The position numbers were made by a program, and so were the translations under genes. From Candidatus Poribacteria bacterium (GTDB lineage Bacteria; Poribacteria; WGA-4E; GCA-2687025): a stretch of DNA of 36,902 bases. The notes under the pieces were generated by a model, which was given only the letters and a program-made list of their open reading frames with translations, searched no databases and had not been told where the DNA came from. Positions within the stretch are counted from its first letter, which is position 1; every line of letters begins with the position of its first letter. The stretch is from positions 1-36,902 of the forward strand of contig VGLH01000026.1 in assembly GCA_016866785.1 (NCBI GenBank). Reading direction: 5' to 3'. Positions 5,944-34,600 of the stretch are shown here, piece by piece.

Positions 5944-7650
5944 TCAGCTCTGGCGGCGTGCCTTCGCCAGGGCAGGATCGAGGCCGACGAGATGGAAGTA
6001 CTCGGCGTCGGACAGCGCTCGGGGTGCGCTATCGGACTGCGCTTCGTCGATCACCTGGTCGAACAGCGCCTGCTTCTCCGTTAGCACTTGGTCGATGCGT
6101 TCCTCGACCGTGTCGTTCATCACGAGTCGTGATACCAGTACGGGTCGGGTCTGCCCCATCCTGTAGGCGCGGTCCTCCGCTTGGCGCTCTACGGCGGGGT
6201 TCCACCACCGGTCGAAGTGGTAGACGTACGACGCTTCCTGCAGGTTCAGCCCAACGCCGCCTGACCGGAGCGACACGAGCAACAGGCGGATCGACTCTTC
6301 TTCCTTGAACCGACGGATGGTTTCGTCCTTCTGCACGCGACTCAATCCCCCGTGGTACAGCAGAGGACTGCATCCGTCGAGCTTTCCGGCGAGGTATTCG
6401 AGCGTCTGGGTGTACTGCGAGAAGATGAGCGCCTTCTCGCCGCTCTCAACAATGACGTCCAGCGAATCGGCGAGGTAGTCGAGCTTGGCGCTTTCGCTGG
6501 TCTCCGGGTCGAAGTTGCAGATCTGCTTCAGCTTCGTGATAAGCGCCAAGACGTGTTGGAGCGTCACGGTCTCGCCAAGGCTGCGCAGGTAGACCGTTCC
6601 CTCTTCTTCTGCAGATTGATAGGCGTCGCGCTGGGCGTCGGTTAGGTCGAGACGAACCGTGTGCTGCTGCTTCGGTGGCAGGTCGCGGAGCACTTCTCCC
6701 TTCCGCCGACGCAGGAAGTACGGCGCGAGTGTCTGGCGCACAGCCTCAGGCGCGGCGGAGTCCGGCAGGATCAGATCAGGCTTCATGAACGCGGCGATGG
6801 CTGCCAAGTCGTGCCCGCTGTTCTCGATGGGCGTGCCGGTCAGGCACCACGATGCCCGTCGCGGGATGGCGCGCACTGCGCGAGATGTGTTCGTCTCGGT
6901 GTTCTTGATCCGCTGGGCTTCGTCCAGCACGACGAGATCGAACGGACGTTTGGGCAGCAATTCGGAGTCGTTCCGCATCAGCTCGTAGTTGGCAATCGCG
7001 ACGTGAGCCGTGCCGTTCCATTGAGCGTTGCGCTGGCTGGCGTCGCCCTGGATCACCCGCACACGGATTTCGGGGGCCCACCGCCGGAACTCCGACTTCC
7101 AGTTGGACTTCAGTCCGGCAGGACAGATGACGAGAGCCCGATGGACGAACCCGCTGCCGAGCAGCGCGCGGATGGCGACGATGGTCTGGATCGTCTTTCC
7201 CAATCCCATGTCGTCGGCCAGGAGGGCATGCTTGCGCCTTGCGAGGAAAGACACCCCGTCCGCTTGGTAGGCGTGCAGCGGGAAGGGCAGATCGAAGCCC
7301 TTCTGCAACACGTCCCGCAATGGCGGGAAAAGCAGGAAGTACAGCGACCGAAGCGGGTCCCTGCCGTCGGAGGTCTCTGGCTCGATGGCGTCCGTGGGCA
7401 CTCCATCGAGCCGCCCGTCGACGAGGGCTCCTTCAAACAGGCTGGCTTGGTCGATCTGCCCCGGTTCCGTCGCCTGCTCGAAGAATCGGGCGCCCCGAAT
7501 GGCGATCCCGCCGGGAACCGCATCGACGCCTCGGACCACCACTCGCGGACGCACGATGACGTCGCACGCCGAGACGCGGATATCTCTGAAATCGAGGGCC
7601 CGCGCGGCGACGCCCGGTTGCGCCGCCGCTGAGTGGATGGGGGCGGACAT
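5944..7650 (-). CDS. SNF2-family DEAD/DEAH-type helicase (ATP-dependent DNA translocase)
   Basis: A 568-aa protein with both RecA-like lobes of the SNF2 family. Motif I is DDMGLGKT (146-153), motif II DEAQ (243-246) and motif III LTGTP (270-274). The second lobe has the ALIFSQYTQTLEYL strand, the LRSGGVGLNLQEA motif V region and the DRWWNPAVERQAEDRAYRMGQ motif VI region. Such enzymes translocate on duplex DNA using ATP. The first 125 residues are not a recognised domain and may be a partner-binding or accessory segment. The ATG follows the stop of the upstream 401-aa gene by three bases (TAG TCG ATG), so the two are translationally coupled. Bacterial SNF2 proteins of this RapA/HepA-like group work in transcription recycling, repair or phage defence. 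Nothing here decides which. Confidence 0.93.
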   Translation of the reverse strand: MSAPIHSAAAQPGVAARALDFRDIRVSACDVIVRPRVVVRGVDAVPGGIAIRGARFFEQATEPGQIDQASLFEGALVDGRLDGVPTDAIEPETSDGRDPLRSLYFLLFPPLRDVLQKGFDLPFPLHAYQADGVSFLARRKHALLADDMGLGKTIQTIVAIRALLGSGFVHRALVICPAGLKSNWKSEFRRWAPEIRVRVIQGDASQRNAQWNGTAHVAIANYELMRNDSELLPKRPFDLVVLDEAQRIKNTETNTSRAVRAIPRRASWCLTGTPIENSGHDLAAIAAFMKPDLILPDSAAPEAVRQTLAPYFLRRRKGEVLRDLPPKQQHTVRLDLTDAQRDAYQSAEEEGTVYLRSLGETVTLQHVLALITKLKQICNFDPETSESAKLDYLADSLDVIVESGEKALIFSQYTQTLEYLAGKLDGCSPLLYHGGLSRVQKDETIRRFKEEESIRLLLVSLRSGGVGLNLQEASYVYHFDRWWNPAVERQAEDRAYRMGQTRPVLVSRLVMNDTVEERIDQVLTEKQALFDQVIDEAQSDSAPRALSDAEYFHLVGLDPALAKARRQS

Positions 7651-7653
7651 CGA

Positions 7654-8859
7654 CTAGCGCCGCCCTTCGGGCTTGCTGAACATCCAGTGCAGGTCGGGGC
7701 GCGTTCTCAGGCTGGCTGGCTGTCGAACATCGTGGTCTCGCGGCGCCGCTGCGACCGCCATCTCCTGCGCGTCATCGGCTTCTGGCGTCTGTTTCCATGT
7801 GGAGAGCCGTTCGCGCCACCGGCGGATCTCGGACTCGGTGCGAACCGCACGCGAGCTCGCCATCGCCAGGTCGGTATCGCTATCGTCCTTGCGCCGAGAG
7901 ACGGGTCGTCGAACGATCTCGGTTTCGACGCGCGTCGTAGGACGCGTGTGCTGGGCTTCCCGGAGCCGGCGGACGCGCTCGGCGTGCTCGTCCGTGCGCA
8001 TGCCGAATCGGCGCAGACGCTGCTGGATCGCCTCGCTGGTGAGCTCCGCGTCGGGGGCGGCGTCGGGTTCGGCTGCGCGACGCTGCGCCGCGATGGGAGC
8101 CCTCGGCGCATCGCGCACCGGTTCCGGTCCTCGAATGGGGGTGAGTTCCGCAGGAACCCGGGTCGCTCCGTGTACAGACGGGACATCGCTCTCCAGCACT
8201 CGGCTCTGTCGCATCAGTTCCGTGGCGCGCGGCGTGCGCGTCGTCTCGGCAGGCGGCTCAGGAACGGCGGTCGCGCTTGCCGCACGCTCCGCGCCGACCT
8301 TCACGCGCTCCTCGTTTGCCGGCAGCTTGTGGATCGCCCGGAGGATCGCCTCGATACGCTCGAACGGTTCATCAATTCGCATCTTGCCTGCGGCGTTGTT
8401 CAGCGCTCGCTCCATCTCTTGGAGGGCGTCGTCGCCGTCGGGAGTGACGTGCGCGCGCACGAGCCGCTTGGAGCCGCCCTCGACGGGCACCAGCACGGCG
8501 CCGCGATGCTCCGGCAGTTGGAAATCATCCGACGGGGCGACCTCCAGACGAGCGACGATACCAGGCGCAGCCATGTGGTCCCACACGCCCGAGAGGCTCG
8601 CGTCTTCGACCAGTAGGTAGCGTGGCTTCTGCTCGACCGACGCCCAAAGCGACCTACCAATCGTCGCCGCCATCGCGTCTGTCAGTTGCCCGTCCGGGTG
8701 CAGCAGTCGCTGTGTCTCGGATACCTCGACCGGTTCCGTGTAGCGGAACTCGATGGGCAAGCCGCGATGGTTCGTCACCAACAGCCCCGCGACGGAGGCG
8801 TTCAGCGACGGGCTCTGGATCCAGGTCAGGTAACCGAAGAGCAGGTCCTGGGTCGGCAT
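7654..8859 (-). CDS. Unrecognised 401-aa protein coupled to the SNF2 helicase
   Basis: No named family is recognised. Residues 1-170 look globular: an N-terminal LLFGYLTWIQSPSLNASVAG segment, the strand GLPIEFRYTEPVEVS, a helix with AMAATIGRSLWASV, and strands YLLVEDASL and RGAVLVPVE. Residues 185-345 are rich in R, P, A and E and likely disordered. The C-terminus carries short charged helices (RRWRERLSTWKQ). From memory, proteins with a similar N-terminal pattern (GYL, RGLPLEF, TxPV) sit beside SNF2 helicases in Planctomycetes, which would make it a conserved helicase partner; this is not verified. AAGGA lies 8 nt before ATG 8859. The gene ends 3 nt before the helicase start, pointing to one mRNA and equimolar synthesis. 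No membrane segment or signal peptide is seen. Confidence 0.75.
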   Translation of the reverse strand: MPTQDLLFGYLTWIQSPSLNASVAGLLVTNHRGLPIEFRYTEPVEVSETQRLLHPDGQLTDAMAATIGRSLWASVEQKPRYLLVEDASLSGVWDHMAAPGIVARLEVAPSDDFQLPEHRGAVLVPVEGGSKRLVRAHVTPDGDDALQEMERALNNAAGKMRIDEPFERIEAILRAIHKLPANEERVKVGAERAASATAVPEPPAETTRTPRATELMRQSRVLESDVPSVHGATRVPAELTPIRGPEPVRDAPRAPIAAQRRAAEPDAAPDAELTSEAIQQRLRRFGMRTDEHAERVRRLREAQHTRPTTRVETEIVRRPVSRRKDDSDTDLAMASSRAVRTESEIRRWRERLSTWKQTPEADDAQEMAVAAAPRDHDVRQPASLRTRPDLHWMFSKPEGRR

Positions 8860-15134: not shown

Positions 15135-16304
15135 ATGCCGACTGACCCTTGGAACAAGTTCCACTTCCCTGCCACCATCGAGTGCGGGGCCGGGTGCGCA
15201 CTCGCCGTGGGAAGGCGCATCCGTCGCATCGAGGCTGAGCGACCTCTGGTCGTATCCGATCCGGGAGTTGTTCAGGCACATCTGGTGGCTCCCATCATCG
15301 ACGCGCTGGAGCGAGCCGGATGCCAGCCGACGCTGTTCAGCGACATCCGACCCAACCCCACCGACAAGAACGTCTACGCCGGCTCGGTGCGCTACCGCGA
15401 AGGGCACTGCGACAGCATCGTCGCGGTGGGAGGCGGCAGCGTGATGGACGCTGCGAAGGCGATCCGCATTCTGGTCTCACATCCGAATGCGCTCCCGGAG
15501 CTCTACGCCGATGCTGGCGGAGTCGAGCGGATCAGCCGACCGATGCCACGCCTGATCTGCATACCGACGACGGCAGGAACCGGCAGTGAAGTGTCGCGCG
15601 GAGCGGTGATCACGGACACCTCCGAAGGACGCAAGCGAGTTGTCCTCCATCCGCGGATGTCTGCCACGATCGCTCTGCTCGACCCGAACATGACGGTACA
15701 TCTTCCGAAGTTCCTGACGGCGGCGACCGGCGCAGATGCCTTCGCTCACTGCGTCGAAGGCTACTCGGCGAAGGGCTACCACCCGATTGCGGAAGGGATT
15801 GCGCTCCAAGGGATCCGTACCGTCGTCGAAAACCTGCCGGTCGTCGTGGAGGAACCGTCGAACATCGAGGCGCGCGGCAGGATGCTGCTGGCAGCCTCGA
15901 TGGGAGCGCTCGCGATACAGCGAGGGGCTGGCGCCGCGCACGCGCTCTCGCACCCGTTGTCCCACGTCAGCGGGATTCACCACGGTATGGCGAGTGCCAT
16001 CGTGCTCCCAGCGGTCGTGCGCTTCAACCTAGCTGAAGTCCCTGCGCGCCTGGCGCAGATCGCATACGCCATGGGCGTCGATCCTTGCAGTCACGGACCG
16101 GAAGCGGCAGCGGAAGCATTGAGCCAGAGGATCTCAGACTTGCTCGCGCGGCTCGGCTTGCCTCTCCGCCTGCGAGACGCCGGCGTGCGACGCGAAGACC
16201 TTCCCTCCCTAGCAGCGGCAGCAGCTCGCGACGACAGCCACCGAACGAATCCGCGAACCTGTGCCGAAGCCGACCTGTTGTCGCTCTACGAAGAGGTGTA
16301 CTAG
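15135..16304 (+). CDS. Iron-containing (group III) alcohol dehydrogenase
   Basis: A 389-aa protein with the group III metal-dependent alcohol dehydrogenase layout. The NAD-binding loop is VGGGSVMDAAK (98-108), followed by PTTAGTGSEVSRGAVIT (144-160). Metal ligands are D201 and H205 (TGADAFAHCVEGY), H273 (HALSHPLSH) and H283 (GIHHGMASA). All four ligands of the Fe2+ site are present, so it should oxidise an alcohol or reduce an aldehyde with NAD(P). The substrate cannot be read from sequence. It lies between the lipoprotein and the RFAP-synthase-like gene, whose GTG start is 2 nt after this stop. If that neighbour does make a methanopterin-type cofactor, a role in C1 alcohol/aldehyde oxidation would be attractive. 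Confidence 0.92.
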   Translation: MPTDPWNKFHFPATIECGAGCALAVGRRIRRIEAERPLVVSDPGVVQAHLVAPIIDALERAGCQPTLFSDIRPNPTDKNVYAGSVRYREGHCDSIVAVGGGSVMDAAKAIRILVSHPNALPELYADAGGVERISRPMPRLICIPTTAGTGSEVSRGAVITDTSEGRKRVVLHPRMSATIALLDPNMTVHLPKFLTAATGADAFAHCVEGYSAKGYHPIAEGIALQGIRTVVENLPVVVEEPSNIEARGRMLLAASMGALAIQRGAGAAHALSHPLSHVSGIHHGMASAIVLPAVVRFNLAEVPARLAQIAYAMGVDPCSHGPEAAAEALSQRISDLLARLGLPLRLRDAGVRREDLPSLAAAAARDDSHRTNPRTCAEADLLSLYEEVY

Positions 16305-16306
16305 AC

Positions 16307-17293
16307 GTGGAAGGCGGAGGCTCGACGATCGTCGTGACAACGCCCTCGCGACTCCACCTCGGCTTGATCGATCTGCACGGCGGCGAAGGACGGGTTGACG
16401 GCAGTGTAGGACTCGCCCTGTCGGAGCCTTGCTTCGAGCTTCGGCTCACGCGCTCGCAGACCGTTCGGATCGACGCAGACCCGATCTACCATCCGCGCAT
16501 CGGAGCTGTCGTCGCTCGCGCCCGGGAACGTTGGGGCATCGGACCGGCAGCCGTCCGAGTCATCCAGTCGATTCCATCCCATGCCGGGCTCGGGTCGGGA
16601 ACCCAGTTGACATTGGGCGTTCTCGCCGCTCTCTCGGAGCTCAATGGCGTCGGAGCCACGCACGACGACATCGTCGCGCTGTCGGGGCGAGGCGGCACGT
16701 CGGGCATCGGCGCTCACGCGTTCTGTGCCGGCGGATTCCTGATCGACGGCGGTCACCGGTTCCCCCAGTCCAAGGCGACGTTCCTGCCGTCGGCGGCGTC
16801 GGCATCGGCGGGATTGGGCCCGCTTCTCTGGCGGCAGGACTTCCCGGCGTGGGATATCGTCATCGCGACTCCTCACGGAAGGCACGTGTCGGGCGAGGAG
16901 GAGATTCGGCTGTTCCAGACGCTGTGTCCGATCCCCGAAGCGGATGTCGGAGCGGCGTGCCGAAGCCTGGTCATGGGGATGATGCCCGCTCTGGTCGAGC
17001 AAGACCTCGCGTCGTTCGGAGCGGCTCTGGAGCGGTTCCAGTCTGTCGGATGGAAGCGGATCGAGATCGACGCCCAAGACGAGCTGGTTCGTGATATGAT
17101 GGGCGCGATGAGATCGCATGGCGGCTGCGGCGTGGCGATGAGCAGTTGGGGTCCGACCGTCGTGGCGTTCACCACGGATGGGCTTCGGCTGGCAGATGTG
17201 GCACGACGATGGCTGTCACGGCGCAACCTTGGAGGAACCGTCGTGGGGACGCGGGCTCGCAACACGGGAGCCACCATCGAGCGACGGGATTGA
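16307..17293 (+). CDS. Beta-ribofuranosylaminobenzene 5'-phosphate synthase-like GHMP protein
   Basis: A 328-aa protein. The N-terminus TPSRLHLGLIDLHG (12-25), then GRVDGSVGLALSEP (28-41), and the GHMP signature PSHAGLGSGTQ (90-100) match beta-RFAP synthase. That enzyme condenses 4-hydroxybenzoate or pABA with PRPP in the first committed step of (tetrahydro)methanopterin synthesis. The C-terminal GGCGVAMSSWGPTVVAF resembles the GHMP C-terminal motif. GTG 16307 is the start: a GAGGTG site lies 8 nt before it and it follows the dehydrogenase stop by 2 nt. The longer open frame to 16085 runs through the dehydrogenase. In bacteria this enzyme marks methylotrophs and some Planctomycetes. Without other mch, ftr or mptG-neighbour genes here, the exact reaction is inferred from family resemblance. 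Confidence 0.75.
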   Translation: MEGGGSTIVVTTPSRLHLGLIDLHGGEGRVDGSVGLALSEPCFELRLTRSQTVRIDADPIYHPRIGAVVARARERWGIGPAAVRVIQSIPSHAGLGSGTQLTLGVLAALSELNGVGATHDDIVALSGRGGTSGIGAHAFCAGGFLIDGGHRFPQSKATFLPSAASASAGLGPLLWRQDFPAWDIVIATPHGRHVSGEEEIRLFQTLCPIPEADVGAACRSLVMGMMPALVEQDLASFGAALERFQSVGWKRIEIDAQDELVRDMMGAMRSHGGCGVAMSSWGPTVVAFTTDGLRLADVARRWLSRRNLGGTVVGTRARNTGATIERRD

Positions 17294-17332
17294 GATCTGC
17301 TGGATCGCCGTCGAATGTGGGGTGGGATCGCA

Positions 17333-18226
17333 ATGGATACGCTGTTCGTCCCAGAAACCGTGCCGGAGGAATGGGCGGCGCTCGCCGACCGAGCGACGCA
17401 AGGCGGTGGCGTGTTCGTGCTGATTGCCGGCATGGATTCTGGCAAGAGCACGCTCGGGCGGTACCTAGCGCGCGCCGCGCTAGCCAGGCAGCTCATTGTC
17501 GGCTTCATCGATTCCGACATAGGCCAATCCGTGATCGGGCCCCCGACGACGATCGGCCTCAAGATTCTACAGGAATCGACGGACGAGCTCAGCGCCGCCC
17601 CGGACGCGCTCTACTTCGTCGGCGCCACGTCGCCTGCGAATGTGCGAATCGAAATGGTCGTCGGAACAAGACGCCTTGCGGACTTCGCGCGCCGGCGGGG
17701 AGTGGACGTGCTCATCGTCGACACGACGGGTCTCGTCGAGGGCTCTTCCGGCTACCTGCTCAAGGCGCACAAGATCGAGTGCCTCCGTCCCGCGCAGGTG
17801 GTGGCGATCGAGCCGTCCCCGGAGTCCGACACGCTCCGGCATATTCTCGACGCGTTCGAGGGGCAGTCGGATATCGTGATCCATCGGCTGGCACGTCGTC
17901 CAGAGGCGCAACGCCGAAACCCGAATGTCAGACGAAGTTTCCGGGACGAGAAGCTGCGGGAATACTTCTCGAACGCGACCGAGTTCACTTTGCCCGCCAG
18001 CAGCGTCGTGATGAGTGGAGAGGCGCTGACCCAGGACAACCACGAGCCCAGCCGCTTCAAGGACGTCCTGATCGCCTTCCTCGACCGTCGCGGCTTTGCG
18101 TCGGGCCTCGGCATCCTACGCGAGTGGGACGCCGCGAAGGAAACGCTGCGCGTGCTGGCTCCGGCTGATTTCACGGGCAGTGGGCTGCGGATACGCGTCA
18201 GCCTGTTCCACCCTTACCAGCCGTAG
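17333..18226 (+). CDS. Clp1/Grc3-like polynucleotide 5'-hydroxyl kinase
   Basis: A 297-aa P-loop protein. The Walker A is GMDSGKST (33-40). It is followed by the family-specific FIDSDIGQS (59-66) with the GPPTTIGL segment, then LIVDTTGLVEGSSGYLLK (127-144), which holds the Walker B/switch region. This order matches CLP1_P domains, which phosphorylate 5'-OH ends of RNA or DNA in eukaryotic and archaeal tRNA or rRNA processing; bacterial members are poorly studied. The C-terminal 90 residues differ from Clp1's C-terminal domain. ATG 17333 follows GGGGTGGG and is preferred over ATG 17315. It is the last gene of the operon. Its 3' end overlaps the convergent nucleotidyltransferase gene by 13 bp. 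Substrate and partner enzymes are not evident. Confidence 0.8.
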   Translation: MDTLFVPETVPEEWAALADRATQGGGVFVLIAGMDSGKSTLGRYLARAALARQLIVGFIDSDIGQSVIGPPTTIGLKILQESTDELSAAPDALYFVGATSPANVRIEMVVGTRRLADFARRRGVDVLIVDTTGLVEGSSGYLLKAHKIECLRPAQVVAIEPSPESDTLRHILDAFEGQSDIVIHRLARRPEAQRRNPNVRRSFRDEKLREYFSNATEFTLPASSVVMSGEALTQDNHEPSRFKDVLIAFLDRRGFASGLGILREWDAAKETLRVLAPADFTGSGLRIRVSLFHPYQP

Positions 18227-20784: not shown

Positions 20785-20875
20785 GTGCGAACTACTTGCA
20801 CAAACGCCGAGCCAGCCGATGGTCTTCGGTGGCTTGGCGAGTAAGCCTTGGTTTGTCATGGACAGGGAGGCGCTG

Positions 20876-21601
20876 ATGCGATCCGCTCGGCGACACCGGA
20901 TACTGCCGTGGGTGAGTGTGATCGGATTGGTGTTAGCCGTCGTGTCGGTTGGCGGCTGCGCCGGCAAGAAGGTCGTGCCCGTCGTGCACGAAGGGACGTC
21001 GGCTTCGGTTGAGCCGGCTGAGGCGACCGCCGATCCGTCGGTGCCCCTCTCGCACACCGAGACGCCAGCCGTCGCGCAACGTGAAGACGTTGTCGAGACT
21101 ATTGCGGTTGTTGGCAACGAGGTGGGACAACGGGCGCCCGAATTCGCGCTACGGAACGCCGCAGGGGAACCGGTGAGCCTTTCGGACTACGGAGGGAAAC
21201 CCCTCGTGGTGGTCTTCTACCGTGGATTCTGGTGAGGGATCTGCATGGAGCAGCTCGGCGAGCTGCAAGAAGCGTTGCCGCGTATCGCAGGCGAAGGAGC
21301 GAACCTCATCGCGATCGCTGTGGATAGTCCATCCCAGAACAAGAAGGTGATGGCTGACCACAAGCTCGCGTATCCCGTGCTCAGCGATCCGAAGAGGAAG
21401 GCGGTCGTTGCCTACGGTGTGCTCGACCCGGAGAGTAACCCGTTCACGAACCCCGGGTCCCACGCCAACATCGCGCGACCTGCTACGTTCGTCATCGATG
21501 GGGGGGGCGTCATCCGATGGAAGCACGTCGGAACGAGCACCAGCGACCGTCCGAGCGTGGCGACCATCATCTCTCAACTGAGGTCGGTCGCCGGGATATA
21601 G
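20876..21601 (+). CDS. Peroxiredoxin-like lipoprotein with in-frame UGA (probable selenocysteine)
   Basis: Two collinear same-frame segments join across a single TGA at 21233-21235 into one 241-residue protein. Residues 1-28 are a lipoprotein signal (MRSARRHRILPWVSVIGLVL, lipobox cysteine C28). A Pro/Ala/Thr-rich linker follows. From about residue 80 (VGNEVGQRAPEFALRN) comes an AhpC/TSA thioredoxin fold. The active site reads FYRGFW-UGA-GIC-MEQLGELQ, exactly where family members have FYRGxWCxxC, so UGA replaces the first (peroxidatic) cysteine and gives a UxxC motif with C123. The second half is complete and undamaged to TAG 21601 (PVLSDPKRK, ARPATFVIDGGGVIRWKHVG). GGGAGG 5 nt before ATG 20876 sets the start. 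A hairpin 22 nt past the UGA fits a bacterial SECIS. A Sec role is inferred; a pseudogene or sequencing error in one codon is the alternative. It probably detoxifies peroxides in the envelope. Confidence 0.75.
21250..21266 (+). promoter_or_regulatory. Candidate bacterial SECIS hairpin
   Basis: A 7-bp perfect stem (21250-21256 with 21260-21266) closes a GGC loop. The loop starts 22 nt after the UGA, within the usual 16-37 nt window, and G occupies the first loop positions, as SelB-binding elements require. It lies inside the coding sequence for EQLGELQ, so part of the self-complementarity could come from codon choice. Confidence 0.6.
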
Positions 21602-22933: not shown

Positions 22934-23884
22934 TCACGCCTTCCGAGCGATCACCTTCTCCACGGCGCGGACGATGTCCGCTGCGACCAGTCCGTAGCGC
23001 TCCAGCAGCTCGCGTGGCGTGCCGGACTCGGCATAGGTGTCCTGAATACCCACAAACTCGATGGGAACCGGTCGCGTGACGGCAGCCGCCTGAGCGACCA
23101 TCGAGCCCAACCCCCCGATGACGGAGTGCTCCTCGGCAGTGACGATTGCGCCCGTGTCACGCGCCGCTGCGGCGACCGCGTCGATGTCGAGCGGCTTCAC
23201 CGTGTGCATATCGATCACGCGGACGCTGATGCCACGGGGTTCGAGAATGTCTGCGGCGTCCAGCGCTTCCGCAACCTGAAGGCCATTGGCGATGACCGTT
23301 GCATCGCTGCCGTCGCGGAGCTGGTTCGCCTTTCCCAACGAGAACTTCGCGTCGTCCGCGTAGACGATCGGCACTTTGGGTCTTCCGACGCGGACGTATG
23401 CCGCCCCGGACATCGCGGCGACGGAGTGAAGCAGCGCCTTCGCCGCGACCTGATCGGCGGGGACGCAGACAACGAAGCCCGGCAACGAGCAGGCAAGCGC
23501 GACGTCCTCCACGCTCATCTGCGAGGGACCGTCTTCGCCGATGCTGATTCCGCCGTGCGAGGTCACGACCTTGACGTTGAGACCGGGATACGCCACCGAC
23601 TGTCTCAACTGGTCGAGTCCCTTGCACATCAGGAAGACAGCGAAGCTGCTGATGAAGGGGACCTTGCCCGTCAGAGCTAGTCCGGCTGCTGCTCCGACCA
23701 TGTTCGCCTCGGCGATCCCGAAGTTGAAGAAGCGGTCAGGGTACTTCTCCGCGAACTTGGCGGTTCGCGTCGAGCCGGAGAGGTCCGCATCGAGCACAAC
23801 GACATCAGGGCTGGCGGCTCCCAGCTCCAGTAGGACCTTGCCGTAGGTGTCGCGCGTCGCTTCGCCCATCGGACGAGGATTCAT
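22934..23884 (-). CDS. Transketolase, C-terminal subunit
   Basis: A 316-aa protein containing the pyrimidine-binding and C-terminal domains of transketolase. Landmarks are DVVVLDADLSGSTRT, FFNFGIAEANMVGAAAGLA (the conserved glutamate that activates TPP), SHGGISIGEDGPSQMSVED and EEHSVIGGLGSMVAQ. It needs the N-terminal subunit encoded 6 nt upstream to form the TPP enzyme. Together they transfer two-carbon ketol units in the pentose phosphate pathway, or act on a related substrate as many split transketolase-like pairs may. The split form is common in Archaea and several deep bacterial lineages. Confidence 0.92.
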   Translation of the reverse strand: MNPRPMGEATRDTYGKVLLELGAASPDVVVLDADLSGSTRTAKFAEKYPDRFFNFGIAEANMVGAAAGLALTGKVPFISSFAVFLMCKGLDQLRQSVAYPGLNVKVVTSHGGISIGEDGPSQMSVEDVALACSLPGFVVCVPADQVAAKALLHSVAAMSGAAYVRVGRPKVPIVYADDAKFSLGKANQLRDGSDATVIANGLQVAEALDAADILEPRGISVRVIDMHTVKPLDIDAVAAAARDTGAIVTAEEHSVIGGLGSMVAQAAAVTRPVPIEFVGIQDTYAESGTPRELLERYGLVAADIVRAVEKVIARKA

Positions 23885-23890
23885 CTTGGG

Positions 23891-24727
23891 CTACCCCTCC
23901 GCGTCGAGTTCCGCAAGCGCTCTCGACAGCTCATCAGCGGTCGGCGCGATACCGTGGTACTTGGGACCGTCCGCTTCCATGAACGACACGCCTTTGCCCT
24001 TGATCGTCCGGGCGACGATTGCCGTTGGCGCGTCCTGACGGTTCCGGGCAGCGTCGAAGGCGTCGAAGATCGTCGGAAACGAGTGACCGTCGATCTCCAC
24101 GACATTCCATTTGTTGGCTCGCCACTTGTCGGCGAACGGCTCCAGCGGCAGGATGTCGTCGATCCAGCCATCGAGCTGGGCTCCGTTCGCGTCCACGACT
24201 GCGCAGAGGTTCGACAGCCCGTGTGCGCCGGCGAACATCGCGGCTTCCCAGACTTGTCCCTCGTCGCACTCGCCGTCGCCGAGCATCACATAGACGCGGG
24301 CGGGGTTGGCGTCGAGTCGCAGACCCAGAGCCATTCCGACGCCGATTGAAAGCCCTTGCCCAAGGGAGCCGGTCGATGCCTCCAACAAGGGCATCTTGCG
24401 GACGTCCGGGTGACCCTGCAGCGGGCTGTCGAGCTTCCTGAGGCTGGGCAACTCGGCGACATCGAAGTAGCCGGACATGGCGAGCGCCGTGTAGAGCGCC
24501 GGGACGCCGTGCCCCTTGCTGAGAATGAACCGGTCGCGGTCCGGGTCCTTCGGGTTCCTCGGATCGTGCTTGAGTTCATGCCAATAGAGAGCGGTCAGCA
24601 GCTCGACAGCGGACAACGACCCGCCCGGATGCCCGGAACCCGCCTCGGCGATCATCCGAAGAATGTGGCGTCGCATCTCCCGCGCAATGTCCCGGAGCGC
24701 AGTCAAGTCGGGAATCTTGGCAGGCAT
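23891..24727 (-). CDS. Transketolase, N-terminal (TPP-binding) subunit
   Basis: A 278-aa protein with the TPP-binding half of transketolase. It has EAGSGHPGGSLSAVELLTAL at the start, SKGHGVPALYTAL, LEASTGSLGQGLSIGVGMAL, and the metal/TPP motif GDGECDEGQVWEAAMFAG with DANG about 30 residues after the GDG. It ends with the IKGKG segment. It is 6 nt upstream of the C-terminal subunit, and AAGGA precedes ATG 24727. It follows rpmH by only 30 nt, so all three genes likely share the rpmH promoter. That arrangement is unusual. Confidence 0.92.
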   Translation of the reverse strand: MPAKIPDLTALRDIAREMRRHILRMIAEAGSGHPGGSLSAVELLTALYWHELKHDPRNPKDPDRDRFILSKGHGVPALYTALAMSGYFDVAELPSLRKLDSPLQGHPDVRKMPLLEASTGSLGQGLSIGVGMALGLRLDANPARVYVMLGDGECDEGQVWEAAMFAGAHGLSNLCAVVDANGAQLDGWIDDILPLEPFADKWRANKWNVVEIDGHSFPTIFDAFDAARNRQDAPTAIVARTIKGKGVSFMEADGPKYHGIAPTADELSRALAELDAEG

Positions 24728-25336: not shown

Positions 25337-25639
25337 TCGGCTTCCTGTGTCGATGGGTGTCGCGGTGTGTGCAGTCGCTGCCGAGGCACTCGACGAAATG
25401 AACTTCCGACGCCGCCCGTGAGTTATGTGTCGGCGAAGCCGTGTTTCCGCCTCCTGGTGAAGGTCGACACAGCAGTCGGACGATAGAGGACACAACGGTT
25501 CTACGACAGTGGACGATGCTTGTGGTAACGCGACGGGATTGCGCAGACGAGTGTATTGAGAGCGCTCAGGGCGCGCGGTGGCGTGACGCGTTGAGAGGGT
25601 CCCGCCCTCTCCGTTCGCGAGCGGTGAAAGGTGGATAGG
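25337..25639 (+). other. Long 5' leader of the giant surface-protein gene
   Basis: About 300 nt with no convincing gene. It contains a perfect 7-bp stem (GAGAGGG 25593-25599 with CCCTCTC 25605-25611) about 28 nt before the ATG, which could mask or expose the AAAGGTGG ribosome binding site. No known riboswitch core was recognised. Confidence 0.45.
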
Positions 25640-28600
25640 ATGCCGAGGTCTATGACACGTCGAGGGCTTGCGAGCTACTGGTCCGGCGTCTTGGTGGCGC
25701 TCTGCGCGGCGGCGTTGATGCCCTCCGCGTATGCAGCGGCACCGCGCGGATCGATGTCCTCCGAGTACTACCGTCCTCGCGTCACCCTTGTGCCCGCAGA
25801 CGTTGCTGGGGCAGTTGTGCCCGCCAACGGAGGCCTTCCGCTTGCCGACAACAACTGGAAGATCGCGCTCAATGCATCTGGGCAGTACGTGGATCGGTCG
25901 GGCATTCTGAGGGACTCGTCGCTCCTGCCTTTGGAGTTCGGCATCCATCCGTCGGCGACCAACGGGTTCGACGTCCTCATCGACTTCCTCGCTCCGCCGC
26001 CGCATCCGAGCCCCAAGCACCCGGACGGCTACCTGGAAAACCTCAGCCACGCTGTTGATTTCCGACTTCTTGCGACGGATCTTCGCTCCATGCCGGCCGA
26101 CGCGGGCGCAGGACTCAGTTGGACGGCCGTGATCCGCAACAACGCCGACACGCCCTGGACGCTGGCTTGGTCGGCCGACGGGCTCCCGGCGTTGTGGAAG
26201 AGCCTGACGATCACGCCTGCCGGCGGTACGGCCATCAACATGCTCACGACGACATCTCTGGTCGTCCCTGCCGGCGGCATCACGACTCGCTACACGATCA
26301 CAGCGCGATCCGACGCGACGCCCCCGACGATCACCGCCTCTACGGACCAGGGCATCCGCCGCGTCGCGTTCACGCCCTCGGTGACGGCAACCGACAACGT
26401 TACGCCAGTCGCGAGCCTGACCTACCTGTGGACGGGACCTGCAGGTGTGACATTTGCGCCGAACAACGCCCTCGCCACGTCGGTGTCGGCGTCCACAGAC
26501 GGGCCCAAGTCGATTACGCTGACCGTCACGGACCAAGCGGGGAACGCGGCGAGCCAGACGATGTCCTTCTTGTGGGACACGGCTTCGCCAACCGTGGCTG
26601 CGGGTTCGCCTGCCGGCTTTCAGCGGGCTCTGTTCACACAGACCGGTTCCGCCACCGATGCGACTTCGGACGTGGCGACTTACGCCTGGTCGCAGGTGTC
26701 CGGTTCCGGGACGGTGACGTTCGGCACTCCCGCCGCCGCGTCGACGAGCGTGACGGCAAGCGCGGACGGTCCCTATGTGATCCGCCTGACGGCGACGGAC
26801 GCCGCGGGCAACGTGGCGTTCGCGGACACGAACTTCACGTGGGACGCGACGGTTCCGGTGGTGAACGCGGGCACGCCTGCCGACTTCCAGCGGGCTCTGT
26901 TCACACAGACCGGTTCCGCCACCGATGCGACTTCGGACGTGGCGACTTACGCCTGGTCGCAGGTGTCCGGTTCCGGGACGGTGACGTTCGGCGCACCCGC
27001 CGCCGCGTCGACGAGCGTGACGGCAAGCGCGGACGGTCCCTATGTGATCCGCCTGACGGCGACGGACGCTGCGGGCAACGTGGCGTTCGCGGACACGAAC
27101 TTCACGTGGGACGCGACGGTTCCGGTGGTGAACGCGGGCACGCCTGCCGACTTCCAGCGGGCTCTGTTCACACAGACCGGTTCCGCCACCGATGCGACTT
27201 CGGACGTGGCGACTTACGCCTGGTCGCAGGTGTCCGGTTCCGGGACGGTGACGTTCGGCGCACCCGCCGCTGCGTCGACGAGCGTGACGGCAAGCGCGGA
27301 CGGTCCCTATGTGATCCGCCTGACGGCGACGGACGCTGCGGGCAACGTGGCGTTCGCCGACACGAACTTCACGTGGGATACCGCGCTTCCAACGGTCGTT
27401 CTGCCTGCATCGCTCGGCGCATACCGACTGGCGTTCACACCGACGGGCGTATCGGCGACGGACAGTTCGACGCCGCTGGCGTACCATTGGACGAGCCCGA
27501 CTGGCGCCGTCTTCTCGCCGGTCGATGCGCTCTTGCCCCTGGTCTCCGCCGGCGTCGAGGGCGACCACAGCGTAACCCTCACGGTGACCGACGCCGCCGG
27601 AAACGCCCGGTCTTCCTCAGCGACCTTTCGCTGGGATACGCGTCTGCCGACGCTCGCGGCTCCGACGTCTTTTGGCGTTTTCCGAGCCCCATTCACAACT
27701 TCCGGCGTGACGGCGACTGACGCCAGCGCTCTCACCTATTCGTGGACGAGCCCGTCGCCAGCCGTGGCCTTCTCGCTGCCGAACGCTCTCTCGACCTCCA
27801 TCTCGGCGACGGCTGACGCTGACCACACGGCGACGATCCGTGCGACGGATGCCGCCGGCAACTTCGCGGAGGCGACGATTGCGTTCCGATGGGATACGAC
27901 GCCGCCAAGCGTCAGCGTGGCTCCGGTCGGCGAGGTCGGTGAGCCCTTCACGCCTGCCGTGACCGCGAGCGACAACCTCACGACAGTCGGTTCCCTGGCG
28001 TTCAAGTGGTCTGGTCCTACGGGCATCGCGTTCTCGAGCACGACCCTCGCAGCCCCGACCATCGAGGCGAGCGCCAACGGCGGCTATTCCGTGACCCTCT
28101 CGGTCACCGATACGGCGGGCAACGCCACGACCGTCGATGTGCCGTTCACGTGGAACTCTGCGCGGCCCAGCCTGACTGCGGACGCCGATCAAGGCGTTCA
28201 TGACACGCCGTTCTTCCCAGTCGTATCTGCAGTCGATCCAGACCTCCTGACGTTCCTTTGGACGGTTCCGGAGAACGTCGTCGTGTCCGATCCGACTGCG
28301 CTCGTCCCCGAGATCAGCGCACTTGTCGAAGGGCACTACGTACTGACTCTCACGGCAACCGACGCGCTCGAGCAGTCTACCAGCGTGACGATGACCTTCG
28401 CGTGGGACGTGACGCCCCCGATCGCCTCGGGACCGTCTAGCCAAGAGCACCGGAACAAAGCCTTCGAGCCGACGTACACGGTGGCGGACACCGTGGCGAC
28501 GGCAGACGAGCTCATCTATGAGTGGTCGAGCGATGAGTTCGTGTTCTTCTCCGCTCCCGGCGCGGCGGTCACCACCATCTCGGCGACGACCTTCGGCTTG

Positions 28601-31600
28601 CACAGCGTGACTCTGACGGTGATCGACCAAGTCGGTCACACGGATGAGTACACGTTCACCTTCACCTGGGACGTCGACGAGCCGTTGATCGCGCTGGTTC
28701 CGGACCAGGGGGACTTCCGCGAGGCATTCACGCCGGATGTTGAAGCGGTGGACGATATCACTGCCGCTGCCTCGCTCGAGTTCGAGTGGTCGGGGCCGCC
28801 TGAGGTCAGCTTCTCGAACTCGGGGATCCTGCTACCGACGATCACGGCGTCCGCCGACGGGGTCTACGAGATCGCGTTGAGCGTCTACGACCTCGCCGGG
28901 AACGTTGCGTCCGCGACGACGACGTTCGTGTGGGACACGACACCTCCGATTGTCGAGGGTCCTGCTGATCAGGGCATCCATCGTGTTCCGTTTGCCCCGG
29001 ACGTGATCGCATCGGACGCGCTGAGCCCCTTCGATGGCTTGGAGTTCGCATGGGTTGCCGACAGCCGGGTCCACTTCAGCGACGCGAACGCGCTCTCGCC
29101 GACGATCGATGCGTCTGAGGACGCTGTGTACGAGCTCGGGCTGAGCGTCATCGACCTTGCGGGCAATGTCACGCATGTGCCCATGGAGTTCGTCTGGGAT
29201 ACCACGGCGCCCGCCATCACGATCACGGCGGAGCCCGCGCTACCCGTGTACCTGACGCCGTTCACCGCGACGGCGACCTATGAGGACCTGGCGGGTATCG
29301 ACCTCGAATCGGTCCTGTGGAAGCAGACCAGCGAGCTCGGTACGGTCTCGCTCGACACGCCGAAGGCGCTTTCGACCGTCGTGGTCGCGGATCGCCCCGG
29401 CGAGTACGCGATCTCGGTCAGCATGACCGACCTCGCGGGCAATGTCGGAACGAAGACACTGGCGTTCGTATGGTCTGAGCCGATCACCATCCGGCGCGCG
29501 ATTCCGGCGTTCGCAAAGGCGATTGGCGGCGACACGATCGTGATCGAGGGTTCCGGCTTCGCCAACCCGATGCGCATCACAGTCGCCGGTAGTTCGGCGA
29601 CGGGCACGGTTGGCGCTGGCGGATCGAGTGTGACCATTACGGCTCCACCCGCCGCGCCTGGGCCCGCCGGTGTCGAGATCGAGAGCCGATTCGGAACTCC
29701 GATGGCGCAAACGGCGAGCGCTCCTGGGATCGTTACCTACCTGGCTGCGCCAACAATCGCCGGCGTTGAGCCTGCCACCGGAAGCGTTCTCGGCGGCGTT
29801 CCCGCCCGCGTGTCAGGAACCGGGTTCCGAGCAGAAGCTCGGCTGTTCCTGGGCGAGACTGCCATCAGCGACGCCGTCGTGGCTCCGCCGTCGTCGATCA
29901 CCTTCACGGTTCCGCCGGGCAGGGAGGGTGCGCTGAGCGTGCGTGTCGTGAACGACACGGATCAGCCCTACTCTCAGCAAGCCACGGCTGCCAACGCGTT
30001 CACCTATGTCAAGGAGAGCGCGACGGCGACGGTGTCGCCGAGGTTCTCAACGCTCAGTGGCGGCGTACCGCTGACGATCACGAGCGCTGGGCTGCCCGAC
30101 GACATCGTGGTGGCGATCGCGGGTACGGCGATTCCAGCCACACGCGTGTCTCCGACCACTGTGACGACGCTGTCGCCGGAACGCACGGAGCCGGGGCCCG
30201 TCGGCATGGAGCTCCGAAGCGCGCGGTTCGCTACTCCAATCAGCGTCGCGAACGCGGTCGAGTACCTGCCCCGCATGGCGATCTCCAGCGTGACGCCGAA
30301 GCGGTCGCTTCCTGCCGGCGGCGAGACGCTGACCATCGAGGGGTCGGGCTTCCGCACTCCGGCGGTCGTGTTCCTCGGCAGCGCCCGGCTGACTCCGTCG
30401 ACCGTCGAACCCACGTCGATTACGCTGGCGATCCCGCCTGGGACGCCTGGCGTGGTGGGTGTGCGCGTCGTCACGGACACCGGCGAGCCGTTCCAGCGCG
30501 AAGCGACCCTGGCTGCGGCGTTCGAGTATGTGCCGGACATGACCTTCACGGGCATCGAACCGAAGGAGGGCCCGGTCGCCGGCGGCACCGAAGTGACCAT
30601 TCTTGGCAGCGGGTTCAGTGCGGACGCACAGGTCCTCTTCGGCACGACGCCGGCAAGCGTCGTGTCTCGGACGCCGTCGCTGCGAGTGACCTCGCCCGCC
30701 AGCGGCACGGCAGGACCGGTCGGCGTCACGGTAGTGAACTTCCCGGACAGCCCACTGACAAAGCGAGTGACGCTGGAGAACGCGTTCACCTACACGTCGC
30801 CGATGTCCCTCACGTCGTTGAGCCCTAAGATCGGCTCGTCTGACGGCGGGACGGTCGTCACGATCACGGGAGCCGGGTTCCTGGCAGACGGCAGACCCGT
30901 CGTCCTCTTTGGGACGGCGCGTGTGACGCCAACCGCCATCACCCCCACCACGTTGACGGTGACGGTTCCCAAGATGGACTCCGAGAAGGTCGTTTCCGTT
31001 ACGGTCGTTCAGTATGAAGGCACTCCGCGCGAGGCGCGACTGGTCCTCGAGAAGGCGTTCGAGTTCGACACGCCGCCGGTCGTGTCCGACGTGACGCTGA
31101 CCAGCGCCGGGCCCGAAGGCAAGTTCGTCACGAACGCCCCGCTGACGGTCTCATACGTCGTCAAGGACGACTTCGACGATCCATCGACGCTGCCGGTGAC
31201 GATCCGGTGGATCAAGAACGGTGCGACGATCCCCGGCGAGACCGGCACGACGCTGCGCGGGAACCTGTTTCGACGCGGCGACACGATTTCCGTCGAAGTC
31301 TTCGTGGTTGGGTCGAGCGGCAGGAAGTCCAACGTCGCGGCTTCCGCGCCGACGAAGATACTCAACACGCCGCCGACCAAGCTGGTGGCGTCGCTGATTC
31401 CGGCGAACGCGGCGGCGGTGGGGATCGGCACGACCACGTCGCTCGGCGTCCGGATCGATGGGGCTGCGCGAGACATCGACGAGGATCGGCTGACCGTCAA
31501 GTACGTCTGGAGCAAAGACGGAACGCCTCAGCCAGACATCACGGGAGCCATCCTCGAATCGACGAAGACGCGGAAGGGCGAATCCTGGACGGTCGCCGTC

Positions 31601-34600
31601 AGCGCCAACGACGGCGAAGCCGATGGTGAGGCGGTCGTTCTGGGTCCCGTCCGCATCCTGAACGCCAAGCCCGTGCTCGAGCTGATCCGAGCTCAGAGCA
31701 TCGATGAGGGCAAGGAGCTCACGTTCACGGCACGCGGCACCGATACCGATCCCGGCGATGCGGAGCTTCTGGCGTACTCGATGACCGTTGCGAACCGCGA
31801 CGCCGCTAGCCCGGGCTCGCTCGATCCAGTCTTCTCGATCGATCCCAAGACCGGTGTGGTGACGTTCACGCTGTCGGAGATTCGTCGTCCGACGCGCGCC
31901 TTCATGGCTACCATCACGGTGAGCGACGGGTTGGACGAGGCGACGCAGGACGTGCTGATCACCGTCCTCAACGTCAACAAGGTTCCCGTTCTGACGCTGA
32001 GTGCCACGGAGATTCCGGGTGAGGTCGGGGTCCCGTTGACGATCACCGCGACTGCCACGGACGGCGACGGCGAAGCGATCACACTGCGAGCGTTCTCACC
32101 CGACGTGACCGGAACCTCGCACCCTGGCTTCAATGCTGGCATCGCGGCGTTCAACTCGGCGACGGCGACCGTCGCCGGCGAAGGCGTCGCCGCCGTTACA
32201 ACCAAGACGCTCACGGTGACGCCATCTGCGGCAGCAGCCGGCAATATCGTCACGCTCAACTTCATCGCGCGCGACGGTAACCCAGGGTCGCAGGCGAGCG
32301 TCAGCGCCCGGGTGACGTTCGGCGCCGTCAATCTGCCGCCGGTCGTGACGGTGATCCCGGAACAGGCAGTTAACGAGAATCAGCTCTTCAGCCTGAACTT
32401 GAGCCCGTTTGCCAGCGATCCCGAAGGTCAGCCGCTCTTCTTCACGAGCACGAGCTTGCCTCGCGCCACGACGCTTAACGAGACCACGGGCGTCATCGAG
32501 TGGCAGACGACCTTCGACGACTCCAAGAGCTACTCGATCGCCGTCAACGTCCGCGACCGAGCCGATGCGGCGGCGCCGGATGTCCAGACGACTGGCATCG
32601 CCTTCACGCTCGTCGTCCGCAATGTGAACCGTGCGCCGCAGCTCGAAGGCGCCCCGGCGGTGCCGATCACGCTGAGCGAGGGCGACTCGCAATCGCTGCT
32701 TGTTCGGGCGTTCGACCCCGACAACGAGCCGGTCGTATTCCTGGAGACGGTGACCCCGTCGCTTCCGTCCTACATCAGGATCGCGACGCGGACGCGCTCG
32801 GATGGCGTCTACAAGCAGATCGAGATCAACCCTCGGTTCGGCGACACGGCGGGCACCACGACCATCCAACTCCATGCTGAGGACGCCGGCAAGCTCGCGG
32901 CAGACGCGTCCATCGGAGTGACGCTCGTTGTCGTCAATCGTCCGCCGGTGCCAGGCACGGTCCCTGCTCAGTTCGCTCAGGAAGGGACGACCCACACCTT
33001 CGGGCTGACCAGCACGGACGTCAATCCTCAGGACGCGACCAAGCTGTCGGTGCGTCTGACGAACACGCCCGCGGGCGCAACGCTGACGCTAGGAGCGCCA
33101 GGAAGCGCGACGTTCTCGTGGGATGTGCCTTCCGACGCCATCGCGACGCTGGGCGCGTCGGTCACCCTGAACTTCGTGTTCAGCGACGGAACCGTCGAAG
33201 TGCCGTTGGATGTGCCGGTCACGTTCGTCCCCGGTCGCGCCGAGGCAGACGTTCGCCCGCTGGCTTCGGGCGTGTCCGCATCGGGCGCGTTCGGCGACAT
33301 CGGCATCTCGTTCACACTCGAGCACCCCGACCCCGCTCACACGATGGGCGTGGAGGTGTCGTACCGCGCAATCGGCGAGTCCGCTTGGCAACCGGCGACC
33401 ATCGTGGGCAGCAGCGCCGGGTTGCTGCCCGGCGCGCAGCGTGTGGTGTGGAGCTCGGCTGCGGACGTTCCGGGTCGCGGGTCCTACCAGGTGCAGGTCT
33501 TGCCGACCGACGACGCTGAGGGCATCGCAGGACTGTCGTCTGGGTTCCCGGTCGACAACGAGCCGCTGCTTGCTCCGACGCTCAACGCGCCGACCGTGTC
33601 CGGCTCGACGGTCGCCTTTGGTGGAACCGCAGCCACTTCGGGTGGCGAGATCGAACTCACCGTCTTCGGCATCAAGATCGCCACGAGCTCGGTGGGCGAG
33701 GACCTGTCCTTCGCCATCAAGATCGCCATGCCCGATGGCGAGTTCCCGGTGGTTGCGAGACATGCTCGCAGCGGCAGGACCGGTCCCGATTCCAAGCCCG
33801 TCACGGTCGTTGTCGACACGACGCCGCCTCGGTTCGTCATGATCTCGCCGGAGGCTGATGCCGATGGCGTTCGAAGGACGACGAGCCGAACGCCGCGCAT
33901 CGTGTTCTCGATTGACGGCGGCCGCAGCGGCATCGTGCCTGAATCACTGACTGCCATCATCGACGGAGCCGCCGTCGCTCCCGTCTACGACGCGAAGACG
34001 AGCTCGGCGACCCTCCCGACGACGACCGATCTTGTCAATGGTCACACCTACGTCGTGGTCATCCGAGGCCGCAACAAGACAGGGCTGGAGGGCAGCGGGC
34101 TCGGCGGCTTCATCGTGCAGGTGGCTCGTGACCGCAAGGGCCCGACGATCACGGCGGCTTCGCCGTCCAGTGGGAGCCGGTCGGCCGCCACCAGTGTCGA
34201 CGTCATCGTGACGGTGACCGACGACAGCGGCATCGACGCGAGATCGACGACGCTGACACTGGACGACGCTCCGCTGACGATCTCGTTCACCGCGACCGAC
34301 GCGTCAGGCGGCGAGATCAGAGCCTCGGCAGCAGGGCTCGTTGAGGGTGAGCATCACCTGCGTCTCAACGTGTTCGACACCGTTGGGAACTCGACGGAGC
34401 GGCGGTGGCCCTTCCAAGTGATCCGCAGTCGCCGCGAGTCCACCAAGCCGCTGGCGACCGTACAGCAGGCAACGCGGTCAGCCGACTACGCCCTGTCAGG
34501 TACGACCGCACCCCAGTCGCTGGTATCTCTCGTCGTGAACGGGAACGTCGCATCGACGACCGTTGCCGATTCGACCGGCGCCTGGTCGCTCACCGCGCGA

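Follow-up and report, generated by a model that had tools for sequence, protein, structure and literature searches.

A predicted lipid-anchored, peroxiredoxin-like UxxC selenoprotein of Candidatus Poribacteria

Results

A solitary gene with one in-frame TGA

We analyzed a stretch of 36,902 nucleotides (the window), positions 1 to 36,902 of the forward strand of contig VGLH01000026.1 from the Candidatus Poribacteria bacterium assembly GCA_016866785.1. A gene on the plus strand of this window contains a sole in-frame TGA at 21233-21235 and is otherwise open in frame on both sides of it. The preliminary description had placed this TGA on the first cysteine of an FYRGxWCxxC motif, and its coordinates are correct: the residue is Sec120 in the context FYRGFW-U-GIC, in which UGIC comprises residues 120-123. 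The gene and its features are listed below.

20864..20870, plus strand: Shine-Dalgarno-like AGGGAGG, 5 nt upstream of the ATG (motif match only)
20876..21601, plus strand: whole selenoprotein gene, ATG at 20876, Sec120, 241 residues (homology on either side of the TGA)
20876..20956, plus strand: residues 1-27, MRSARRHRILPWVSVIGLVLAVVSVGG, predicted as a lipoprotein signal peptide by a simple rule on lipobox and hydropathy
20957..20959, plus strand: Cys28, predicted lipidated residue, lipobox VGG-C (sequence rule; lspA in the genome)
20960..21121, plus strand: linker, residues 29-82, low complexity, without Pfam match
21122..21520, plus strand: AhpC/TSA (PF00578) thioredoxin-fold domain, residues 83-215 (Pfam E 3.7e-34; model pLDDT 93; Foldseek)
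21233-21235, plus strand: TGA for selenocysteine (Sec120), the leading residue of UxxC (TGA or Cys in every homologue read)
21242..21244, plus strand: Cys123, predicted resolving residue, aligned to the peroxiredoxin peroxidatic Cys (Cys in 126 of 130 rows, Ser in 4; AhpE and BCP alignment)
21250..21266, plus strand: bacterial SECIS hairpin GCAGCUC-GGC-GAGCUGC, 7 bp, loop GGC (co-variation in 57 homologues; fold)
21479..21481, plus strand: Pro202, at the thioredoxin cis-Pro place, which is the catalytic Arg in peroxiredoxins (114 of 130 rows have Pro and no row has Arg; AhpE alignment)
21599-21601, plus strand: TAG stop codon (read from the sequence)

The gene is solitary, the flanking genes on both sides lying on the opposite strand, and none of the adjoining genes indicates a partner. 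At 16085-18226 the window holds a beta-RFAP synthase-like ORF (RLHLGLIDLHG) and, after it, a Clp1-like P-loop protein; the synthase-like ORF has a homologue beside tandem Sec genes in another genome, G007 (L064:2486-3616). A transketolase at 22934-24727 is apparently split into two adjoining half genes, N-terminal and C-terminal. A very long, repetitive ORF of surface-protein type occupies 25631-36901 and encodes no fewer than 3757 residues; close to the end of the window it contains SFDPLELNALERSLGGG as a tandem repeat.

Homologues carry TGA or Cys at the position of Sec120

Homologues were found in 79 of the 83 genomes of the class and, among the matches listed from these genomes, almost every one had exactly one TGA. 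At the homologue loci that we read, the codon at the place of Sec120 was TGA in 124 and Cys in 8, and no locus had any other residue. Two of the eight Cys homologues, L024 and L063, are from the class and six are from outside it. All but four of the TGA homologues (120 of 124) fall outside a UPNS group; the four members of that group are UxxS paralogues (L093, L095, L137, L138; FFRGTWUPNS) with Sec and a Ser at +3. A search of genome contigs for related loci matched, outside the class, only Cys homologues; this is due at least partly to search patterns that used Cys-substituted letters, and the result is uninformative on Sec members elsewhere.

Downstream of the TGA, dN/dS was about 0.1-0.3 among the pairs listed, indicating purifying selection. 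The earlier statement that both flanks of the TGA are intact, in frame and conserved is confirmed. The source genome also encodes a second Sec-containing, peroxiredoxin-like lipoprotein with the same SECIS (C159:5264-5713 of G000, L061:2265-2723; FYRGKWUPYC), beside which no obvious redox gene was seen.

A co-varying hairpin lies downstream of the TGA

The stem of the putative SECIS element pairs 21250-21256 with 21260-21266 and encloses the loop GGC at 21257-21259, so that a stem-loop with a G in its apical loop lies just 3' of the UGA, as in bacterial SECIS elements. The 7-bp stem and the loop had been described correctly before, but the distance of 22 nt given for the hairpin is that to the start of the loop; the stem begins after 14 nt.

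Folded alone, the hairpin gave a z of -2.4; in a 58-nt context it was not the minimum-energy fold. A permissive screen for SECIS-like structures was passed by 22 of the 146 in-frame TGAs of the window (15%), and the single-sequence hairpin by itself is thus not better than chance. Since single-sequence folding was not decisive, we relied on co-variation. Because the protein motif QLGELQ could alone yield a palindrome, we examined synonymous codon choice as well.

In an alignment of 57 homologues less than 86% alike in the hairpin stretch, 96.7% of the hairpin cells were paired, and four of the seven stem pairs showed changes on both sides. None of 500 shuffles reached as high a covariation score, and registers slid along the stem paired at only 16-51%. 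One exchange in the stem, CAA..TTG for CAG..CTG (Gln and Leu), is synonymous on both sides. Two others have a cost in the protein: C-G to U-A in L118 replaces Leu with Phe, and C-G to G-C in L080 replaces Glu with Gln; at these double changes the protein yields to the RNA. Codon choice is similarly narrow, with Leu at +7 encoded by CTC in 117 of 120 sequences and Glu at +9 by GAG in 118 of 120; at other sites of these domains the shares of CTC and GAG are 24% and 32%.

The 7-bp hairpin is found below the TGA in 120 of the 124 TGA homologues; the four UPNS paralogues lack a stem at the register shared by the other SECIS elements. No Rfam family matched the SECIS at its gathering threshold.

The machinery is present in the source genome, and Cys copies occur where it was not found

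The preliminary description had proposed looking for the sel genes in the same genome, and all were found in the source assembly (4.35 Mb, 95% complete). The selA and selB genes are adjacent on contig C5, selD is present and likewise interrupted by one in-frame TGA (CAGUASK), and a tRNA-Sec (selC) was matched at 78.8 bits with the anticodon tca, which completes a bacterial selenoprotein machinery. Two tRNA-Sec matches, L015 (C41:31543-31633) and L016 (C76:20147-20237), share exactly 118 bp where one of the contigs ends, and represent either a contig overlap or two copies.

Within the class, Cys copies occur in a single genome, G008, which contributes both of them (L024 and L063). In a tree of 130 sequences, in which the Sec/Cys character needs three changes, the two are nested separately among Sec sequences, and the hairpin is absent in both. 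In G008 (61% complete) no match to selA was found, neither selD nor tRNA-Sec was found, and for selB nothing exceeded the cut-off, the only match being an elongation-factor-like one of 195 bits. Each of these absences is weak singly because of the low completeness of the genome; taken with the two Cys conversions, the four are coherent. In a second genome, G002 (95% complete), none of selA, selB, selC and selD was found (the best selB match was below the cut-off), and this genome is also without the peroxiredoxin-like UxxC family. The G008 paralogue pair, converted from Sec to Cys in a genome in which the machinery was not found, offers a ready natural experiment on the benefit of Sec.

Taken together, the machinery, the TGA at the same codon throughout, the co-varying hairpin and the hairpin-less Cys copies of G008 make the window gene almost certainly a selenoprotein gene, with selenocysteine at the first Cys position as originally proposed. 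Two other readings of the TGA were weighed against this one. If the TGA were a real stop, the product would be a lipoprotein of only 119 residues, or else the locus would be a pseudogene or carry a sequencing error. Under translation table 11 the frame does end at the TGA, and such hairpins are common in a single genome. However, more than 100 independent homologues have TGA at the same codon with dN/dS well under 1 beyond it, on which grounds we rejected a pseudogene or sequencing error, and a co-varying SECIS with the full Sec machinery already contradicts a stop; we consider this reading very improbable. The TGA could instead have been reassigned, or be read through independently of SelB, to give Trp, Cys or Arg; in favour of this, one may cite that the homologous residue is Cys in relatives lacking Sec. 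Yet TGA serves as an ordinary stop for 7 of the 18 window genes, on which ground we rejected genome-wide recoding, a hairpin of SECIS type is retained solely alongside TGA, and tRNA-Sec, SelA, SelB and SelD are present with TGA and were not found with Cys. Reassignment is the least probable of all the readings considered here.

A peroxiredoxin-type fold without the peroxiredoxin active site

The domain scored 117.8 bits against PF00578 (curated cut-off 26), and its model was confident. The nearest folds in Foldseek were the peroxiredoxins Bcp4 and AhpE (TM 0.82-0.88), with ResA further away (TM about 0.7). The earlier assignment as a peroxiredoxin therefore holds at the level of the fold. It does not hold for the active site, in which three of the four catalytic positions of the peroxiredoxin signature (PxxxT/SxxC plus a catalytic Arg) are replaced in essentially all members. 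The Pro place is occupied by Arg in 126 of 130 rows and by Pro in none, and the Thr place by Sec or Cys in all 130. The catalytic Arg, mutated in the AhpE R116A entry 4xih, aligns with Pro202. Only the peroxidatic Cys is retained, aligned with Cys123. The replacements of P by R, T by Sec and R by Pro rule out a true peroxiredoxin, and the loss of these residues together with the thioredoxin-type Pro argues against peroxiredoxin chemistry.

The residue-by-residue alignment with peroxiredoxins thus makes Sec the leading residue of a thioredoxin-type motif. In the model, Sec is residue 46, where the first active-site helix (model residues 47-65) begins. Glutathione peroxidases carry their Sec at this same point of the structure, and Sec here therefore occupies the nucleophile place of thioredoxins and glutathione peroxidases.

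Export signals are conserved across the phylum

The predicted signal peptide combines a basic RRHR n-region, the hydrophobic h-region ILPWVSVIGLVLAVVSV and the lipobox VGG-C28, the lipobox being assigned by a pattern rule. By the same simple rule, 116 of the 124 Sec homologues have a signal peptide and 48 have a strict lipobox; many of the remaining signal-bearing homologues share the layout with Asn at -1 of the Cys. The eight Sec homologues without a signal are the four UxxS paralogues and others that are truncated by contig ends or whose start is uncertain. The preliminary description had regarded a Sec redoxin on a lipoprotein signal as unusual. The predicted signal stands, but it is not peculiar to this gene: since most homologues in the phylum are predicted to be exported or lipid-anchored, the architecture appears to be a phylum-wide habit rather than one gene's oddity.

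The number of family matches per genome ranged from 1 to 7, with several paralogues in many genomes. In the large family f8, one form has CarboxypepD_reg beta-sandwich domains between the anchor and the redoxin. Three Sec lipoprotein genes of f8 lie in tandem in genome G037 (L068, contig C12, 3385-6661), with beta-sandwich-like segments in the same place; an exported protein (MKPNDEVIQ...) follows this array at 6661-7776. The signal-bearing Sec redoxins L077, L079 and L029 are extended at the C-terminus by about 190-300 unannotated residues, an addition common to families f5 and f6.

Discussion

Our explanation of the locus as a whole, a peroxiredoxin-like UxxC selenoprotein that is exported, lipidated and cycles through Sec120, is one that we regard as probable. 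The downstream hairpin would recruit SelB to the UGA, and SelB would deliver Sec-tRNA, placing Sec at residue 120; sequence and comparison back the Sec insertion, the SECIS, the machinery and the fold. The protein is predicted to be exported, cleaved before Cys28 and lipid-anchored, so that the thioredoxin-fold domain would face the envelope on a 54-residue linker. We infer the remaining steps, namely substrate, resolution and reductant. Sec120 would attack an oxidized substrate, most likely a hydroperoxide, otherwise a disulfide. The resulting selenenic acid, or a mixed selenenylsulfide, would be resolved by Cys123 with formation of a Sec-Cys bond. This bond would be re-reduced by a thiol carrier of the membrane, for example DsbD, which the genome encodes in full length with a thioredoxin-like C-terminal domain. 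Sec attack, Cys123 resolution and reduction by an envelope thiol make the simplest cycle. The window protein is thus most likely, judging from its sequence, an envelope selenol peroxidase or disulfide reductase with a resolving Cys at +3 and DsbD as the reducing partner.

As to the substrate itself, a peroxide is a realistic candidate, a disulfide a less probable one, and something else an unlikely one. The same selenoprotein might instead act as a ResA/TlpA-like envelope thiol-disulfide oxidoreductase on protein disulfides, reducing or shuffling them, or on other oxidized sulfur, and not on peroxides. Its CxxC-type motif with Sec first, the Pro at the cis-Pro place in place of the peroxiredoxin Arg, the match of the ResA profile to all 36 aligned members and the presence of DsbD would fit such a role. 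Against it, the closest folds are peroxiredoxins, and the UPNS variants point to a Sec that can work by itself, in the manner of a peroxidase. We hold this alternative only tentatively.

Because export signals are conserved across the phylum, with 1-7 matches per genome, selenium is apparently spent repeatedly on envelope redox chemistry. Selenoproteins of peroxiredoxin-like fold are usually catalogued without a location, and the conserved export opens selenium use at the cell surface to testing. We put forward, as a speculative proposal, that the phylum carries multi-copy, lipid-anchored selenoenzymes outside the membrane, some of them on beta-sandwich stalks. They would form a dedicated selenium-based redox system outside the cytoplasm whose chemistry is its own, with Sec in the glutathione peroxidase place on a peroxiredoxin scaffold, and all of them would turn to Cys upon loss of the Sec machinery from a lineage. 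Such genes are likely to be annotated as a truncated lipoprotein and an orphan fragment, since translation by table 11 stops at the TGA in every case; the annotation could be repaired with a family model.

Comparison with known systems

A lipoprotein NiFeSe hydrogenase may provide a precedent for a selenoprotein that is a lipoprotein. UxxC selenoproteins of peroxiredoxin-like fold are themselves an established family (PMC1088965, PMC1794560, PMC2398784, PMC9312934, PMC13188914), as the preliminary description had recognized, and the window protein has the features by which the published accounts define it: PF00578 with UxxC, TGA first, and Cys homologues at the same position. With its peroxiredoxin P, T and R replaced, we file it among the peroxiredoxin-like thiol:disulfide oxidoreductases (PF00578, UxxC/UxxU; 'Prx-like 1' of the GOS selenoproteome; PMC13188914, PMC9312934, PMC2398784, PMC1088965), with which it shares the domain, the Sec-first UxxC, a downstream SECIS and Cys homologues elsewhere. 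It differs in having a predicted lipoprotein signal, phylum-wide export signals and several paralogues per genome, and some phylum members have beta-sandwich stalks or C-terminal additions. A term search of the open-access literature gave no mention of a lipoprotein form.

No NCBIfam model reached its cut-off for the window protein. The best, NF040769 (SelL-related redox protein), also matches all 36 aligned members and is alike in its peroxiredoxin-like fold and Sec in a thioredoxin-type motif, but the scores of 71-73 bits against a cut-off of 120 make the protein a non-member by NCBI's rule. AhpE and PrxQ-BCP are the closest solved structures; their peroxidatic Cys aligns with the Cys at +3, whereas their Pro, Thr and Arg are Arg, Sec and Pro here. 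With ResA/TlpA the protein has in common an exported thioredoxin fold, the CxxC place and the cis-Pro place, but its fold and sequence are nearer to AhpC/TSA, and Sec comes first. The peroxiredoxin-like UxxS selenoprotein listed in PMC13188914 (cd02970 row) resembles the UPNS paralogues of the phylum, which lack a signal peptide, whereas the window protein combines UxxC with a signal. Set beside these systems, Sec and the SECIS are as expected; what is new is the architecture at the envelope and the fact that it is conserved.
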